DNA of 64,000 bases from Xenorhabdus poinarii G6 (GTDB taxonomy: Bacteria > Pseudomonadota > Gammaproteobacteria > Enterobacterales > Enterobacteriaceae): positions 1,860,001-1,924,000 of the forward strand of contig NZ_FO704551.1 of NCBI RefSeq assembly GCF_000968175.1, in the 5' to 3' direction. Under the pieces are notes generated by a model that saw nothing but the letters and a program-made list of their open reading frames with translations, was not told the DNA's origin and made no database searches. Within the stretch, counting starts at the first letter, position 1, and each line of letters starts with the position of its first letter. The position numbers were made by a program, and so were the translations under genes. Of the stretch, positions 52,262 through 60,905 are shown in pieces.

Positions 52262-52500
52262 TTAACAAAGTAAACAAGTTCGTATATCCTTGAATAATTC
52301 ATTAGGTGTTTTGTCATCATGCGTTTTTCTAGGATGTTTATTTAAGAGATTGACCACAATATTTATCTCCAGATCTGATACCTTATTAATATCTGTCTCT
52401 TTTGGAAAGTAGTCTCTAATTAATCTATTTGTATTCTCATTTATTCCTTTTTTCTGAGGAGAGTAAAAGTGGGGTAAATTACCTAAGTGAAAATCAATCG
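52262..52500 (-). mobile_element. IS30-family transposase C-terminal remnant
   Basis: The - strand frame NLPHFYSPQKKGINENTN, then RLIRDYFPKETDINKVSD and LLNKHPRKTHDDKTPNELF is the C-terminal end of an IS30 transposase. The upstream part of the ORF (52503-52545) is instead an IS6-like end. Confidence 0.82.
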
Positions 52501-52589
52501 CTTTTTCTTCACTCGTACTTTCTTTGTTAATGAGAAAAAACCGTTTTTCTACCTGTCTAATTTGTTCATTGATTTCGTTCAAACGGTAA

Positions 52590-53112: not shown

Positions 53113-53493
53113 TCATAGCAACTCAAATGCCCGCGTGAAAACATCATCAGAATACGGTTGTTGACCGTTTTCCATCCAGATCATCGCCGTAATCAGTACT
53201 GTCATGGTGCGTTGATGGTTCACACCAATCACTGCATCACTGGCAATACCAACCAACCTGCTCACATAATTAATGTATGCCTCAGTGTCGTTTTCAACTG
53301 GTGGCGCCCAGCGGGAAATAAACTGACGGATCGTATTATCGCCATATTTGCGTTCATAATTACACAGAATTTTCAGCATGGCCCGTATGCCATATTCTGG
53401 TGATACAAACTGACAAAATGATTTATCTGTTTGTGTATCTCTCAACCCCAGCCATTTATCACCGTGGCGAATGTTGCGTATGCCTCTACGCAT
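53113..53493 (-). CDS. Phage lysin/structural protein-like, copy 2 (N-terminal deletion)
   Basis: 126 residues, strongly similar to the protein at 31128 (FVSPEYGIRAMLKIL, YERKYGDNTIRQFISRWAPP) but missing five residues near the start: RGIRN runs straight into IRHG, losing HNPGN. That lost piece is the most conserved of the family, so activity is doubtful. It overlaps the holin stop by one base (TGATG), indicating translational coupling. Confidence 0.72.
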   Translation of the reverse strand: MRRGIRNIRHGDKWLGLRDTQTDKSFCQFVSPEYGIRAMLKILCNYERKYGDNTIRQFISRWAPPVENDTEAYINYVSRLVGIASDAVIGVNHQRTMTVLITAMIWMENGQQPYSDDVFTRAFELL

Positions 53494-53780
53494 CAGTTCA
53501 CCCCAAATTTATTTTTGAGAAAAATGAATACAGATTCGATAATCGCCCCAATTTTTTTGGTGCCTAAAAATCCAATGAACACACCAAAAAACTGCGCCAG
53601 ACTGAGCGGCAGATTCGCATATTCCAGCGCGGTAATAATCCCGATACTGATAAACGAACAAATCGCCGCTTCAGCCAATGACGCCATCCAACCCGCACCG
53701 TCTCGTTTCTCACGCGTAAATGCGGTTACCGCCGCTAGCAGCATTCCCGCAATGCGTGGATACGGATGTACTGGAAGTGA
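53493..53780 (-). CDS. Phage-type holin, copy 2 (5' end lost or altered)
   Basis: The recognisable frame is 83 residues from ATG 53744 and extends upstream without a good start. Three hydrophobic segments, VFIGFLGTKKIGAIIE and a basic tail align with the holin at 30808, but the first ~25 residues are not recognisable. It precedes the lysin copy and follows the DUF2829-like genes on the same strand. Confidence 0.65.
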   Translation of the reverse strand, partial: SLPVHPYPRIAGMLLAAVTAFTREKRDGAGWMASLAEAAICSFISIGIITALEYANLPLSLAQFFGVFIGFLGTKKIGAIIESVFIFLKNKFGVN

Positions 53781-53805
53781 TTGTGGTGGTAAATATAAAA
53801 AAGGC

Positions 53806-53825
53806 CACGCCGGAGAGCAGCCTTA
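53806..53825 (-). terminator. Terminator after DUF2829-like paralogue 1
   Basis: On the - strand AAGGCTGC pairs with GTGGCCTT (one G-U), followed by six T. Similar hairpins end paralogues 2 (about 55606-55630) and 3 (about 56743-56767). Each gene therefore has its own terminator. Confidence 0.65.
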
Positions 53826-53850
53826 GATTTTGTGTATAAATTTAACTGAC

Positions 53851-54573
53851 CTAATTATTATCCCATTTGACACAGAAACGTTTAGTTTTACCTGTTTGCT
53901 TCAATATTTCACTCAATTTTTGAGCGTCATCATTTTGATAATTAATAGAAAGACCATATTTATCAAAGGAGCTAAAATACGTACCTAGACCGAGCTTGTA
54001 TTTCACATTGTCGACTATTACTTGAAGATTTTTGTTTTCAAATAATTCCTTTATTTTTTGAAGACTTTCACTATTTTCAGATGTGACTACATCAAACATA
54101 AATTCACTACCATTCCAAAAAAAACCTTCTATTTTTTGTATTTCCATCTCATTATTTTTGATTAGATTTAATTCTCCGTAAGAGATACTAACATCACTTG
54201 AATATCCCCAATTTGATCCATACCTCCCTAAAACAATATCAAAAACTAGCACGCTATCTTCTGGGCATCCTGATACTGATTTAATCAACTCCCAATCACA
54301 CGCCATCAAGTCTTCCGGCGTTGGTTCCCAGGACTCCGAAATGCCATCTTTATTATGCTTTTCAATGTGGATAGGACCACTTCCATCGTTTTTAGTCGAG
54401 AGGTGTATATATTCAGCAAGTGAATTCCATTCAGTACGACCTACTGCTTTCCCTTCATATACCTGAATGATTGCCCATGGAACAGAACCTACAGGAGCCA
54501 CCACATCATTACTTTTGTATTTACTGAGATCAAACGGGCATTTTTTATTATCCAGCTTATTAACGTCAGACAC
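53851..54573 (-). CDS. DUF2829 (Tad2-like) domain protein with C-terminal extension, paralogue 1
   Basis: 240 residues; start GTG (ATG in the paralogues) with GAGGGATTT upstream. After the shared leader MSDVNKLDNK, residues about 25-95 fit the DUF2829 pattern: PWAIIQVYEGKAVGRTEW, EYIHLS, then ESWEPTPEDLMACDWELI. DUF2829 is the family of phage Tad2, which sequesters the Thoeris cyclic-ADP-ribose signal. Residues 96-240 are unassigned and end in RFCVKWDNN. It is the most diverged of the three. Same strand as the holin/lysin pair just downstream. Confidence 0.72.
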   Translation of the reverse strand: MSDVNKLDNKKCPFDLSKYKSNDVVAPVGSVPWAIIQVYEGKAVGRTEWNSLAEYIHLSTKNDGSGPIHIEKHNKDGISESWEPTPEDLMACDWELIKSVSGCPEDSVLVFDIVLGRYGSNWGYSSDVSISYGELNLIKNNEMEIQKIEGFFWNGSEFMFDVVTSENSESLQKIKELFENKNLQVIVDNVKYKLGLGTYFSSFDKYGLSINYQNDDAQKLSEILKQTGKTKRFCVKWDNN

Positions 54574-54875
54574 AAATCCCTCACTTTATTATTCGTTAAA
54601 GGTCATTTCGTCCTACTGCCAACTAGTCAGTTAATATTACTTAGGTTATGTTTTTATCTCAATTTAATATCCGCTAACAGAATTAATACGCATTAAAATA
54701 GGGTTTCGTATTATAAAGTATGACTATTAGTCGAGTGCGTAATTCAGTGAGTTGTAAATTCAAAATTTACTGCTAACTCTGAATACGGCTTTACCCAGCA
54801 CCGTTTTTAAGGCGTCAAAATCGATTTTTCCCTCAGAAAATACTTCCGGGAAAAGCTGTTTTAGTTGGTTGAAAT
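54574..54875 (-). repeat. Leader repeat of the DUF2829-like array, copy 1
   Basis: About 300 bases upstream of paralogue 1 recur upstream of paralogue 2 (56439-56740); the first ~210 bases recur before paralogue 3 (57540-57750). The gene-proximal part carries the promoter and ribosome site. The distal part (54760-54875) encodes, on the - strand, a fragment of another gene (see separate entry). Confidence 0.88.
54760..54875 (-). pseudogene. Type III DNA methyltransferase (Mod) N-terminal-like fragment, repeated
   Basis: The - strand frame reads NQLKQLFPEVFSEGKIDFD and then ALKTVLGKAVFRVSSKF before a stop. LxxLFPEVFxEGKIDFDxLKxxLG is the typical N-terminal region of type III restriction-modification Mod subunits. 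An almost identical fragment is at 56625-56740 and its last codons are at 57724-57750, so it has been copied with the DUF2829-like modules. Confidence 0.6.
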
Positions 54876-54877
54876 CA

Positions 54878-55560
54878 TCACCACCCGCATAGCGGGTGGT
54901 TTGCTCTAGCCCTATAAGGGCGTGTTACCGACCGCGCCTAAATGACGCTGCTTTCTCTTCGTTCAAGCTAAGTGTCTTTGCTACTTTAGCTCACCCCTTG
55001 AAGGGGTCCACATGTTCCTTCGTACTTAACTTATCTTCGATTAAATCTGATTTTTCTTGCTCTCTGATATATTTCTGAATGGTTGCTTCATTCAGCCCTA
55101 CCGTACTCACGTAATACCCTTCTGACCAAAACTTCCTATTGCCAAATTTGTATTTTAAGTTTGCATGCTTATCAAAGATCATCAGCGAACTTTTGCCTTT
55201 CAAATATCCCATAAAACTTGAAACACTTAATTTTGGAGGAATACTCACTAACCTATGAACGTGATCTGGCATCAGATGTCCTTCGATTATTTCAACACCT
55301 TTATACTTACAAAGATCTCGTAAAATCTCACCAACACTTGAACGAATACCATTAAAAATCACTTTCCGTCTATATTTCGGCGAAAAGACGATAGGGTATT
55401 TGCACAGCCACTTTGTATGCGCTGAGCTTTGTGCTTTAATGCCCATAAACACCTTTCCTTATTCGAGTTACGACAATTAGCTTGAACATCTATATCGTAA
55501 CGGAAAGGTGTTTTTCTTGGTATAACCCTTTGACTCCACCCGCAAAGCGGGTGGTTTTAT
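54878..55560 (-). mobile_element. IS200/IS605-type element
   Basis: Contains one tnpA gene and subterminal hairpins with the same stem at both ends: CCACCCGC pairs with GCGGGTGG at 54881-54899 and 55536-55554, each with a 3-base loop. It sits between the leader of paralogue 1 and the terminator of paralogue 2, splitting an array that is otherwise uninterrupted between paralogues 2 and 3. No tnpB. It looks intact and recent. Confidence 0.85.
54991..55446 (-). CDS. tnpA: IS200/IS605 transposase TnpA
   Basis: 151 residues from ATG 55446 (GGAAAGG upstream). A Y1-HUH single-strand transposase: the HUH motif is HVH in EGHLMPDHVHRLVSIPP and the nucleophile Tyr is in ATIQKYIREQE. It moves the element as single-stranded DNA using the flanking hairpins. 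Confidence 0.92.
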   Translation of the reverse strand: MGIKAQSSAHTKWLCKYPIVFSPKYRRKVIFNGIRSSVGEILRDLCKYKGVEIIEGHLMPDHVHRLVSIPPKLSVSSFMGYLKGKSSLMIFDKHANLKYKFGNRKFWSEGYYVSTVGLNEATIQKYIREQEKSDLIEDKLSTKEHVDPFKG

Positions 55561-55652
55561 GTTTAAGACGCTAATGCGACTTAAACTGGCTAAAGCCATA
55601 ATAAAAAAGGCCGCGCCACGCGCAGCCTTGAATTTAGGGGGGTAGATTGGGA

Positions 55653-56438
55653 TTATTTCCAGTTGAAGCAAAAATGCACTGTTTTACCTACGTTTTGTTT
55701 CAATAGAGCACCTAGTTGTTTTGAATCAGTGTTAGTGTACATCCCAACGAATTCGTATGGTTTTTGACCGGTTTTATTTCCTTCTGTAGCCTGCCCAAGA
55801 AAATAAGATACACCATTGGAAGTTACAGTGAGGTTTTTCCCAAATAATTCTTTCATCTTCTGATAACCATCTTGAGTCTTATCAGAGGAAACTCTAATGT
55901 CAAGCTCTGGATGATTAGCCCACCATACAAATAATGAGAATTCCTTAATATCTGTTTTATTTTGGAAGTTAGTTAAATCACCAAAAGAATACTCACCGAT
56001 AGAAGTCCATTCCTCGTCAGCAAGGTATCCCCAATTTTGCCTGCCATCATCAAACTTGCCAGTTCCTATCGTAAGATCAAAAGACAACATACCATTATCT
56101 ATCTTTGGCTCCCCATTATCTGTCTTTGGCACCGACTTTAACAGCGTCCAATCATGGGCCATCATGTCGTCTTGCGCAGGCTGCCATGATATCAGTATGC
56201 CGTGTTTATCACGCATTTTAACTTCGGGTGCAATATCATTACCATCACCAGCTACAAGGTATATATATTCACCAGAAGCAGACCAATCCTTGCGATATAC
56301 TTGCCCTCCTGAATACACTTTTATTATTGCCCACGGGAAAGAACCGGCGGGTGCTATATTATCAATTGCAATATTTTTTCTATATTGCTCAGGATCAAAC
56401 AGAAATTGTTTATTATCCAGCTTATTAACGTCAGACAT
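55653..56438 (-). CDS. DUF2829 (Tad2-like) domain protein, paralogue 2
   Basis: 261 residues, ATG with GAGGGATTT upstream. Leader MSDVNKLDNKQ, then the DUF2829-like part (PWAIIKVYSGGQVYRKDW, GEYIYLVAGD, MRDKHGILISWQPAQDDMMA, HDWTLLKS) to about residue 100. The C-terminal domain of about 160 residues, with KTDIKEFSLFVWW, DGYQKMKELFGKNLTVTSNG and a VHFCFNWK end, is shared closely with paralogue 3. No signal peptide or membrane helix. A role as phage-derived anti-defence or signal-binding protein is inferred only from the N-terminal domain. Confidence 0.72.
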   Translation of the reverse strand: MSDVNKLDNKQFLFDPEQYRKNIAIDNIAPAGSFPWAIIKVYSGGQVYRKDWSASGEYIYLVAGDGNDIAPEVKMRDKHGILISWQPAQDDMMAHDWTLLKSVPKTDNGEPKIDNGMLSFDLTIGTGKFDDGRQNWGYLADEEWTSIGEYSFGDLTNFQNKTDIKEFSLFVWWANHPELDIRVSSDKTQDGYQKMKELFGKNLTVTSNGVSYFLGQATEGNKTGQKPYEFVGMYTNTDSKQLGALLKQNVGKTVHFCFNWK

Positions 56439-56624
56439 AAATCCCTCACTTTATTATTCGTTAGTGGTCATTTCATCCTACTGCCAACTCGTCAGCCAAT
56501 ATTACTTAGATTGTATTTTTATCTCAATTTAATGTCCATTAGCAAAATTAATACACATTAAAATAGGGTTTCGCATTATAAAGTATGACTATTAGTCGAG
56601 TGCGTGATTCAGTGAGTTGTAAAT

Positions 56625-56740
56625 TCAAAATTTACTGCTAACTCTGAATACGGCTTCACCCTGCACCGCTTTTAAGGCGTTAAAATCGATTTTTCCCTCA
56701 GAAAATACTTCCGGGAAAAGCTGTTTTAGTTGGTTGAAAT
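56625..56740 (-). pseudogene. Mod N-terminal-like fragment, second copy
   Basis: Nearly identical to 54760-54875, in the leader region of paralogue 2, running directly into the terminator of paralogue 3. Ends at the same TGA. It confirms that the module boundary lies inside an old methyltransferase gene. Confidence 0.55.
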
Positions 56741-56789
56741 AAAAAAGGCCACACCATGCGCAGCCTTGAATTTAGGGGGTAGATTGGGA

Positions 56790-57539
56790 TTATTTCCAGT
56801 TGAAGCAAAAATGCACTGCTCTACCTACGTTTTGTTTCAATAAGTCGCCTAGTTTTGTTGCATCAGTGTTAGCGTAGCTCCCAGCGAATTCGTATTGTTT
56901 TGCACCATTTTGTTGACTTCCTTCACTAATTTGCCCAAGAGAATAAGATACGCCATTGGAAGTTACAGTGAGGTTTTTCCCAAATAATTCTTTCATCTTC
57001 TGATAACCATCTTGAGTCCTATCAGAGGAAACTCTAATGTCAATCGCATTCACATGATCCCACCATATGAATAATGAGAATTCCTTAATATCTGTTTTAG
57101 TTTGGAAGTTAGTTAAATCACCAAAAGAATTCTCACCGAGAAATGCCAATTCCTCGTCAGCAAGGTATCCCCAGTTGTACCCACTATTACCATAATTCCT
57201 GACAACTTCTATCTTAAGATAAAAAGACAACATGCAATCCATTGCAATCCAATCACAGGCCATCATGTCGTCTTGCGTAGGCTGCCATGATGTCAGTATG
57301 CCGTGTTTATCACGCATTTTAACTTCGGGTGCAATATGATCACCATCACCAGCTACAAAGTATATATATTCACCAGAAGCAGACCAATCCTTGCGATATA
57401 ATTGCCCTCCTAAATACATTTTTATCATTGCCCACGGGAAAGAACCGGCAGGTGCTATATCATCAATTTCAAACTTTTCCTTATATTGCTCAGGATCAAA
57501 CGGGCATTGTTTATTATCCAGCTTATTAACGTCAGACAT
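56790..57539 (-). CDS. DUF2829 (Tad2-like) domain protein, paralogue 3
   Basis: 249 residues with the same ribosome site and leader (MSDVNKLDNKQCPFDPEQYK). The DUF2829-like domain shows GGQLYRKDWSASGEYIYFVA, DKHGILTSWQPTQDDMMACDW. Relative to paralogue 2 it lacks a short insertion after the domain (around residue 100) and differs in scattered positions of the C-terminal domain (IKEFSLFIWWDHVNAIDIRV). It is the first gene of the array in transcriptional order. Confidence 0.72.
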   Translation of the reverse strand: MSDVNKLDNKQCPFDPEQYKEKFEIDDIAPAGSFPWAMIKMYLGGQLYRKDWSASGEYIYFVAGDGDHIAPEVKMRDKHGILTSWQPTQDDMMACDWIAMDCMLSFYLKIEVVRNYGNSGYNWGYLADEELAFLGENSFGDLTNFQTKTDIKEFSLFIWWDHVNAIDIRVSSDRTQDGYQKMKELFGKNLTVTSNGVSYSLGQISEGSQQNGAKQYEFAGSYANTDATKLGDLLKQNVGRAVHFCFNWK

Positions 57540-57824
57540 AAATCCCTCACTTTATTATTCGTTAGTGGTCATTTCGTCCTACTGCCAACTAGTCAGTTAA
57601 TATTACTTAGGTTATGTTTTTATCTCAATTTAATATCCGCTAATAGAATTAATACGCATTAAAATAGGGTTTCGTATTATAAAGTATGACTATTAGTCGA
57701 GTGCGTAATTCAGTGAGTTGTAAATTCAAAATTTACTGCTAACTCTGAATATCCGTGTTGGACATAGGACAATAAAAAGCCCTGCATTGGCGAAACTTTA
57801 AATTAACGGACAAATGAATTTACA

Positions 57825-58482: not shown

Positions 58483-59868
58483 ATGTTTTCTATTGATACC
58501 TCTGTCTGGGCGCAAGCAACATTCCAACAAGCTAAATTAGGCGATGCACGTCGAACGAAAAGACTTATTCTGCTTGCTAGCCAACTGGCGGCTAATACGG
58601 GAAAATCCATTGTGCAATCTCATTCTTCAAGCGCTGATATTGAAGCAGCTTATCGTTTTGTTCGTAACGATGATATTGACGCCCAAGCCATTGCTGAAGC
58701 CGGTTTTGCGGCAACGGTTGATGCCTGTATGGCGCACAATTGTTTATTCGCGTTGGAAGACAGCACTTCTTTGGAGTTTAAGCATCCAACAGCAGCCTGT
58801 GAGCTAGGTCATACAACATCTCACAAAAATTCATCCGGTTTGCAAGTTCATTCTGTTTTACTCTTTTCACCAGAGGAGCAGCAGGTTATTGGCTTAATTG
58901 AACAACATCGTTGGACTCGGGATAGTGCTTCTTATGGGCAACGTAAAGACCGAAACCGGCGCGCTTATGAAGATAAAGAGAGTTATCAATGGCAACGCGC
59001 CTCGCAAGCGATGTCATTGAGACTCGGCGAACAAATGAACAACGTCATCTCTGTTTGTGACAGAAAAGCGGATATCATTGAATATCTTCGATATAAAACA
59101 CAACAACAACAGCGGTTTGTTGTTCGCTCCATGCAAAGTCGATGCATTGAGCAAGCTGATGATAGACTTCACCCATTTAGTGCATCGCTATGCCGTGCTG
59201 GGGAACGGAGCGTTCATGTTCAACAAAAAGGCGGTCGTCAATCAAGAGATGCCATCTGTAATAGTCGATTTGCGCCGATTTCAATAAAAATCCCCTCAAA
59301 TAAAACGGGTCATTCCCTCTCACTTTTTTATGTTGGTTGTCAGAAACAAGGTGATAATGAAGGATTATGTTGGCACCTTTTAACCAGTGAACCTGTTACA
59401 ACAGCTGAGCAAGCACAGAAAATCCTTGAGTATTATGAGAAGCGTTGGTTAATCGAGGATTTTCATAAATCATGGAAAACAGGGGGAACCCAAGTCGAAG
59501 AACTTCGTATGCAAAGCAAAAACAATTTGGAACGAATGATCGTTGTATTAGCGTTTATTGCGGTTCGTATCCAGCAGTTGCGCTATCTTAGTTTACAAAC
59601 AGAGCGTGCAAAAAAATAGAGTGTGAAAGTTTATTGAGCTCGGTCGCGTGGAAATTACTGTGGCTGAAAACGGAGTCAAGGCACCTCCCCACAAAAGTAC
59701 CCAGCCTACATTGGGCCTATTTAAAATTAGGGAAGCTCTCAGGTTGGATGACAGTAAGCGAACCGGAATAGTTGGCTGGCAGAGGCGATGGGAAGGCTGG
59801 TTCAAACTACAAACCTTGCTTGAAGGCTACCAACTTGCACTGTCTCTTGACGGGGATAATATCCCGTT
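58483..59868 (+). mobile_element. IS4-family (Tn5-like) transposase, frameshifted
   Basis: The first 378 codons (58483-59619) are intact: WAQATFQQAKLGDARRTKRL, AAYRFVRND, DSTSLEF and KSWKTGGTQVEELRMQ, a Tn5/IS50-like DDE transposase. A run of seven A near 59612 throws the frame. The rest continues in the next frame (ECESLLSSVAWKLLWLKTES), then shifts again to DSKRTGIVGWQRRWEGWFKL and ends near 59868. Two frameshifts make it inactive. Confidence 0.85.
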
Positions 59869-60129: not shown

Positions 60130-60905
60130 ATGGGGATTCTGACATCCGTAATAAATCCCTGCCGCAGTCGCGAATTTGCCAAAGCAATGGGGATCTTCAC
60201 AAAAACAGATGCGGTAGACGCTTATGTTCTGGCATCTTATGGTTGCCTGAAGCAACCTGAGGCCTGGGCGCCCCCGGCAGAAGAAATTCGGAAGCTGAGA
60301 GCGTTGCTGCAACACAGAAATAGCCTGCTAAATGATAAACTACGAATTGATAATCACCTGAATACATTGAAATCTACTGAGGAAGTTCAGGAGGTTATGG
60401 ATTCATTGTCGTTAGTTAATCAATACCTGAAGGGCGAAATTGCCAAAATAGAACGTCTGATATCCAGCCATATAGCGCAACATCCTGGACTAAAAAGTGA
60501 CCTTAAACTTCTCATGTCTATCGATGGGATAGGGAAACAAATTGGCTGGAATATGCTGGCTGTGTTACGAGGAAATAATTTTAAGAGCGCAGAGCAACTG
60601 GCCGCTTATCTCGGCGTTGTTCCGGTCGAACGCCGCTCAGGAACTTCCGTCCATGGACGAGCACGGCTATCAAAGATAGGTTCATCAAATATCAGAGCAA
60701 AATTGTATATGGGAGCACTGACAGCAATCAGTAAAAATAGCCATATTAAAGCGCTCTATGAACGTCTGTTAGCAAAGGGAAAGTGAAGATGTCGGCATTA
60801 GGTGCGGCAATGAGAAAGTTGGTGCATCTTTGTTATGGTGTACTGCATACGCAGCAACCTTACGATGAAAAATATAAAGCAAAAATAATTAACTTCAGCT
60901 CTTGA
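60130..60905 (+). mobile_element. IS110-family (IS1111-like) transposase, truncated and frameshifted
   Basis: Begins inside the N-terminal domain (INPCRSREFAKAMGIFTKTDA) and includes the C-terminal helix-hairpin-helix and transposase_20 regions (LMSIDGIGKQIGWNML, LAAYLGVVPVERRSGTSVHG). A stop at 60784 is followed by the expected end SALGAAMRKLVHLCYGVLHT in another frame. Its 3' end abuts the broken sbnB gene. Confidence 0.82.

Follow-up and report, generated by a model that had tools for sequence, protein, structure and literature searches.

The 64,000-nucleotide stretch of the Xenorhabdus poinarii G6 genome analysed here (the window; contig NZ_FO704551.1, positions 1,860,001 to 1,924,000) carries three minus-strand paralogues, P1, P2 and P3, that span 53851-57539 and belong to a genus-wide family of two-part proteins. 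Judged from their sequences, the members of this family are modular: a shared promoter-like region, 5' untranslated region (5'UTR) and leader precede a conserved Tad2 head, which is joined to differing DUF7823 tails. The genes recur at two kinds of phage site, one that follows the Q region and precedes holin-endolysin-Rz and one close to the tail sheath of P2-like elements. We give about an even chance to the reading that they are prophage cargo whose head binds a nucleotide-type signal and whose tail binds a variable target. The parts themselves are ordinary, as both domains are already in Pfam and relatives have already been named Tad2. Less ordinary is the modular, genus-wide and often prophage-borne two-part form, in which tails have been exchanged and are in part fast-evolving. 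Searches of open-licence PubMed Central (PMC) papers turned up no description of this architecture.

Domains and fold

The Tad2-like profile PF11195 matches the N-terminal part of P1, P2 and P3 with E-values of 1.9e-12, 6.3e-15 and 2.9e-14 (48.0, 55.9 and 53.8 bits; curated cut-off 25 bits), and PF25136 (DUF7823) matches their C-termini with 9.6e-24, 2.1e-30 and 1.1e-30 (84.5, 105.9 and 106.8 bits; cut-off 27 bits). A preliminary description of this DNA had recognized three co-oriented paralogues with an N-terminal DUF2829/Tad2-like domain, and both points hold. It took the C-terminal domain for novel and unassigned, but Pfam already has an entry for it. The Pfam name denotes a domain of unknown function, and no paper found in the literature covered mentions DUF7823. 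Relatives retrieved by alignment search are named 'Thoeris anti-defense Tad2 family protein', 'DUF2829 domain-containing protein' or 'MW1434 family type I TA system toxin'.

The heads have the fold of Tad2, which in solved structures is a small stand-alone sponge. The chains of Tad2 from Bacillus phage SPO1 (PDB 8SME, 8SMF and 8SMG) and of ModTad2 from a Myroides odoratus prophage (8V3E, 9EIB) comprise 88-90 residues, whereas the Xenorhabdus proteins add the leader and the DUF7823 tail. With 240-261 amino acids and a second domain, P1-P3 depart from the short, single-domain build of Tad2, a difference of architecture rather than a functional criterion. AcrIIA7/HgmTad2 (8KBI-8KBM) and SptTad2 (8WJD) likewise share the domain family and fold of the Xenorhabdus heads. 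Cyclic-dinucleotide binding by Tad2 is placed, in one review (PMC12043709), in an insertion between beta2 and beta5, a stretch in which P1-P3 are short. The Tad2 family motifs are kept in the heads, and the head connector numbers 32 residues in P1-P3 versus 47 in ModTad2. Among 64 measured copies the middle connector is 27-39 residues long in 56 and 52-56 in eight, and the long-connector copies have, by eye, a different upstream sequence.

A shared front end

Each of P1-P3 is preceded by the promoter-like sequence TTGAGA-N17-TAATAT and followed by a stem-loop and T-run resembling a terminator. Because such scans give numbers near shuffled expectation (17 promoter-like sites versus a mean of 17.5; 5 terminator-like sites versus 3.8), the evidence for the promoter-like sites is their conservation between genes. 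The shared leader and near-identical upstream DNA of the preliminary description are present; its individual terminators stand as terminator-like sites after each gene, at a rate close to that of shuffled sequence.

Sixty stretches of 8-19 kb, a non-random set picked for long flanks, hold 82 upstream regions of family open reading frames (ORFs). Of these, 55, selected as belonging to full-length ORFs and having [AG]TGAGG close to the start, align over about 200 nucleotides, with TTGAGA-N17-TAATAT and a 5'UTR of the pattern GATGAAATnACC...AGTGAGG. The 5'UTR pattern has 56 matches in 20 of 30 Xenorhabdus genomes, versus none for a reversed control pattern, and in 51 of the 56 cases a family match follows within 1.6 kb downstream; the remaining five are three leader remnants, one match at a contig end and one other. 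In a looser scan of the collected loci (numbered with the prefix L), 71 of 84 distinct matches precede a clear family member, and the other 13 comprise seven chance matches, three broken leaders, two DUF7823-only proteins (L125, L159) and one protein in L123. This last case (L123:6501-6905) joins a family-type 5'UTR and leader to a 135-residue protein with a weak, below-cut-off match to the immunoglobulin-like domain Big_1 (E 1.4e-4), adjoining an invasin-like inverse autotransporter. The shared front end may serve other cargo too.

Distribution

The complete 3.66-Mb X. poinarii genome has eight matches per domain, in the same eight genes at five sites. DUF7823 is present in all 30 Xenorhabdus genomes (129 matches, 127 over the cut-off, some broken by stops or cut short) and the Tad2-like domain in 29, in 28 of them over the cut-off. 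Across the wider family of organisms, DUF7823 was found in 5 of 149 sampled genomes, two of which are Xenorhabdus; in another genus, that of G138, it was found in 6 of 12. A source name accompanies 61 of the 67 proteins from the alignment search, and all 61 are Xenorhabdus; a leaderless form occurs elsewhere, for instance in Pluralibacter gergoviae. Unusual arrangements include nine family ORFs, several very divergent, clustered within 19 kb in L133 (G171:C8:12000-31000), as well as open frames with two (301 residues) or three (478 residues) serial Tad2 domains in L094 (G156:C2) and L143 (G169:C107).

Exchange of tails and rates of evolution

Over the 2016 pairs of 64 proteins, head and tail identities correlate at 0.47. 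Ten pairs combine heads that are 88-98% identical with tails that are 18-44% identical (98/18, 96/43, 93/20 and 93/36, for example); in the pair formed by P1 and the L132 copy, at 1,976 k in the X. poinarii genome, the heads are 96% and the tails 31% identical. Nucleotide identity in these mosaic pairs is mostly 80-100% as far as the Tad2 domain extends and mostly 25-65% in the part behind it. The reverse also occurs, L131 and L132 being more alike in leader and tail (tail 65%) than in head (47%), and some pairs are alike throughout, such as L095/L096 and the two copies of L129. Relatives of the L057 protein are encoded at 13 viral contig loci in IMG/VR, some of them on contigs of strains identical or almost identical to those of the genomes surveyed. 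Five of the 13 match the 283-residue L057 query over its first 124-140 residues only, at 85-93% identity, although two of the five look like one strain's contig twice.

A constant N-terminal part with an exchangeable C-terminal part is also the plan of polymorphic toxin systems (review PMC3482391), but the Xenorhabdus family has no recognized catalytic tail or adjacent immunity gene. The single very divergent tail type that was compared is still linked to DUF7823, and the commonest neighbour clusters are phage, transposase and autotransporter genes, in a grouping in which variable immunity genes would not cluster.

Ratios of non-synonymous to synonymous substitution rates (dN/dS) were obtained from 11 pairs aligned singly, a twelfth (L135/L136) not being computable. 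Tail dN/dS is at least 0.8 in six pairs, including P2/P3 (1.02), L138/L127 (1.39) and L123/L124 (1.75), and 0.10-0.33 in the other five; head dN/dS is about 0.5 or less in ten. The contrast is clearest in L146/L139, with 2 non-synonymous to 8 synonymous changes in the head and 79 to 19 in the tail, and in L134/L140, where the tail is still at 0.33. In a longer list of 25 non-independent pairs, 20 have a higher ratio in the tail than in the head. A high tail dN/dS fits relaxed constraint and positive selection alike, and the two are not separated. The copies of L090, L095 and L096, from three genomes, share their neighbours and have low dN/dS (tail 0.21-0.35); a stable function might best be sought in this group.

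Genomic sites

To describe the sites of the family, ORFs of the 60 stretches were grouped by single linkage and the neighbour labels checked by Pfam on one representative per cluster. Under fixed rules, the family gene stands directly before lysis genes in 13 stretches, has the Q side only in three, lies by P2-type sheath or gpI genes in five and near tail-fibre genes in six; labelled phage genes are beside it in 27. In ten further stretches a family gene lies within 5 kb of an inverse-autotransporter gene (IAT_beta, Big_1), namely in L088, L092, L094, L114, L116, L123, L124, L126, L141 and L143, a count without a chance control.

The association with holin and lysin genes extends to other genomes, a point that the preliminary description had proposed to check. 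Sixteen of the 129 DUF7823 matches lie within 3.1 kb upstream of a phrog_126 holin on the same strand, and 20 within 20 kb in any arrangement; rough arithmetic from 118 holins in about 128 Mb, many of the assemblies being fragmented, gives a chance expectation of about 0.2. Seen from the holins, 18 of the 118 have a same-strand family match no more than 3.1 kb upstream (Tad2-only matches counted) and 100 do not. At 11 of the 13 viral loci a holin, lysozyme or Rz gene comes after the family gene, and at 11 a Q, DUF1133 or methyltransferase gene comes before it; six loci run on into a terminase gene. The family has thus been inserted at phage late-gene sites that other such phages have without it, as expected of a moron. 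Lambdoid phages use the same slot between Q and holin-endolysin-Rz for cargo genes, of which stx is the best known; no kinship is claimed, and most Xenorhabdus copies differ in having a conserved upstream region of their own. On a quick tree of 66 proteins, site class changes 29 times where the least possible is 6, and the lysis slot is involved in at least seven changes on starred branches.

The array in the window

The array of P1-P3 (Table 1) is one tandem duplicate of the family, next to a lysis cassette that has decayed. On the quick tree P2 groups with P3 as its sister and P1 branches elsewhere, at an open fork; an IS200-type transposase interrupts the array and separates P1 from P2. The holin and lysin ORFs lie downstream on the same strand, as first described, but the holin lacks the N-terminal part that is present in the paralogous stretch L131, and the lysin is shortened relative to its L131 paralogue, which itself has an internal stop. 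The window falls under 'other' in the site rules because its holin is truncated. Since family genes recur at the prophage lysis slot elsewhere, the pair is best read as the remains of a prophage lysis cassette. A holin/lysin-dependent export unit was considered and rejected on the truncated holin, the shortened lysin and the terminator-like site between P1 and the holin; what had been proposed as an export route is instead a recurrent prophage site. The preliminary interpretation is partly supported: the Tad2-like domain and the family's association with lysis genes hold, and the export unit and the novelty of the C-terminal domain do not.

Table 1. Features of the array region, in window coordinates
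Feature	Position	Strand	Remarks
P1, two-domain protein	53851-54573	-	240 aa, GTG start; PF11195 (31-97) and PF25136 matches
P2, two-domain protein	55653-56438	-	261 aa; Tad2-like 33-99, DUF7823 149-261; tandem sister of P3
P3, two-domain protein	56790-57539	-	249 aa; leader, Tad2-like 33-98, DUF7823 136-249
IS200-type transposase, not a family member	54991-55452	-	Pfam; between P1 and P2
Lambda-family holin remnant (Phage_holin_3_1)	53493-53744	-	Profile positions 25-95 of 99 only; N-terminus missing
Endolysin/P5-like ORF, 126 aa	53113-53493	-	About 5 residues shorter near the start than the L131 paralogue
Sigma-70-like site TTGAGA-N17-TAATAT before P3	57600-57628	-	Conserved in family upstream alignment
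Sigma-70-like site TTGAGA-N17-TAATAT before P2	56499-56527	-	Conserved in family upstream alignment
Sigma-70-like site TTGAGA-N17-TAATAT before P1	54634-54662	-	Conserved in family upstream alignment
Conserved 5'UTR of P3, to start codon	57540-57599	-	Family pattern GATGAAATnACC..AGTGAGG; in P3 GACGAAATGACC
Terminator-like stem-loop after P3	56745-56767	-	Stem-loop/T-run scan
Terminator-like stem-loop after P2	55607-55629	-	Stem-loop/T-run scan
Terminator-like stem-loop after P1, ahead of holin remnant	53801-53824	-	Stem-loop/T-run scan

A methyltransferase-like fragment of 32 codons (54778-54873, minus strand) recurs upstream of P2 near 56650-56745, so that it is repeated before P1 and P2 and is not found before P3; apparently it was copied together with a family gene or beside one. 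Against plasmid records the fragment has 46 matches at E up to 1 (best E 3e-7), to site-specific DNA-methyltransferases, and one record names the type III EcoP15I subunit M. Transposase ORFs at 58483-59619 and 60130-60786 adjoin the array, one with Tnp_DNA_bind and DDE_Tnp_1 and one of IS110 type by Pfam, in keeping with a decayed mobile region. On the other side, the ORF at 52262-52582 has no Pfam match.

Proposed explanation and alternatives

We picture a genus-wide family of prophage cargo ('moron') genes. In most copies, the gene's own promoter-like region and 5'UTR would allow expression outside the phage lytic programme, and copies in the Q-holin slot should in addition be transcribed along with the late genes. 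The protein would consist of a leader of about 25 residues, a constant head with the Tad2 fold and a DUF7823 tail. The most likely role of the head is to bind and sequester a signal derived from a nucleotide or from nicotinamide adenine dinucleotide, and that of the tail to bind a variable target. Tails would be exchanged by recombination at the head-tail border and would change quickly in some lineages, a pattern suggestive of molecular conflict with another phage, a host defence or the animal host. Conflict between bacterium and phage appears somewhat more likely than action on insect or nematode.

A number of observations weigh against this picture. The short connector of P1-P3 may mean that the known Tad2 pocket is altered. 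In 10 of the 60 stretches the gene is near an inverse-autotransporter gene (two of these also have a copy outside that range), 22 fall into no site class, and in one (L102) no family ORF was called; given the unclassed stretches and those by inverse-autotransporter genes, a purely phage role may be too narrow. Movement between sites is frequent but not free, because site classes cluster on the tree more than in shuffles (29 changes versus a shuffle mean of 35.6, as low in 0 of 200). The contrast in rate between head and tail reaches a one-sided, uncorrected p<0.05 in only 4 of 11 pairs; L137/L122 and L088/L092 are under purifying selection in both domains, and the head of P2/P3 is not the slower part (11 non-synonymous to 1 synonymous change; Fisher p 0.92). 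Finally, the markers of the expected target systems are rare: ThsB_TIR and TIR_2 each occur in 2 and SMODS in 3 of the 30 Xenorhabdus genomes and none in that of X. poinarii, in a search that left aside other TIR, CD-NTase and unknown systems, and with the caveat that a phage need not match its present host.

This scarcity bears most directly on classical phage anti-defence, in which extended Tad2 sponges would neutralize only Thoeris signals or those of cyclic-oligonucleotide-based antiphage signalling systems during phage growth, with DUF7823 as a stabilizing or oligomerizing appendage. Such a role is possible but rather unlikely. Profile and fold identity to Tad2 proteins with solved ligand complexes, the NCBI names and the late-gene slot in prophages all agree with it, and a late slot would suit the blocking of a signal that, according to the review PMC12043709, is triggered by the phage head protein. 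Nevertheless, the rarity of the three markers in the genus makes anti-Thoeris a poor default for the family, a P2 query against 50,697 phage records recovers six, over the head part only, and exchanged, in some pairs fast, tails would be unexpected of an appendage.

Alternatively, the family might face the insect or nematode, as lysogenic-conversion proteins released at prophage lysis or otherwise, whose head would sequester an animal nucleotide signal or act as a carrier and whose tail would bind host targets. We regard this as unlikely. It is consistent with the presence of the family in every Xenorhabdus genome and half of those of G138's genus against so few across the wider family, with a slot between Q and the lysis genes such as that of stx, with the stretches near invasin-like inverse autotransporters and with the L123 gene that carries the Big_1-like domain. 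Reported binding of 3'2'-cyclic GMP-AMP argues the other way, as it concerns, according to PMC12043709, a Tad2 with a long insertion at the place where the connector of P1-P3 is short. A bolder version, improbable in our estimate, would make the Tad2 fold the constant head of a polymorphic, lysogen-expressed effector family with an exchanged and diversified tail. Its target would be not Thoeris but a signal in the setting of insect or nematode, bacterium and phage (cyclic ADP-ribose or a cyclic dinucleotide of the animal, for example), and the lysis of a few cells by a prophage would release the proteins. Least credible is that the genes are selfish or neutral morons drifting with little function, which prophages carry and which spread through recombination at their conserved upstream and head DNA, under relaxed constraint on the tail: truncated leader remnants, broken copies and tail ratios near 1 that may reflect relaxed constraint would fit, but the constrained heads of 10 of 11 pairs, the five low tail ratios and the chromosomal L090, L095 and L096 group with its shared neighbours do not.

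Implications

The Tad2 fold is here the conserved part of a family of two-part proteins found throughout the Xenorhabdus genomes searched, a genus where three marker domains of the known target systems are rare. The head could therefore be used as bait for a new nucleotide signal, and targets could be sought by comparing different tails on one head. In Xenorhabdus prophages, the stretch from Q to the lysis genes and the tail-sheath region are marked as collection sites for such cargo.

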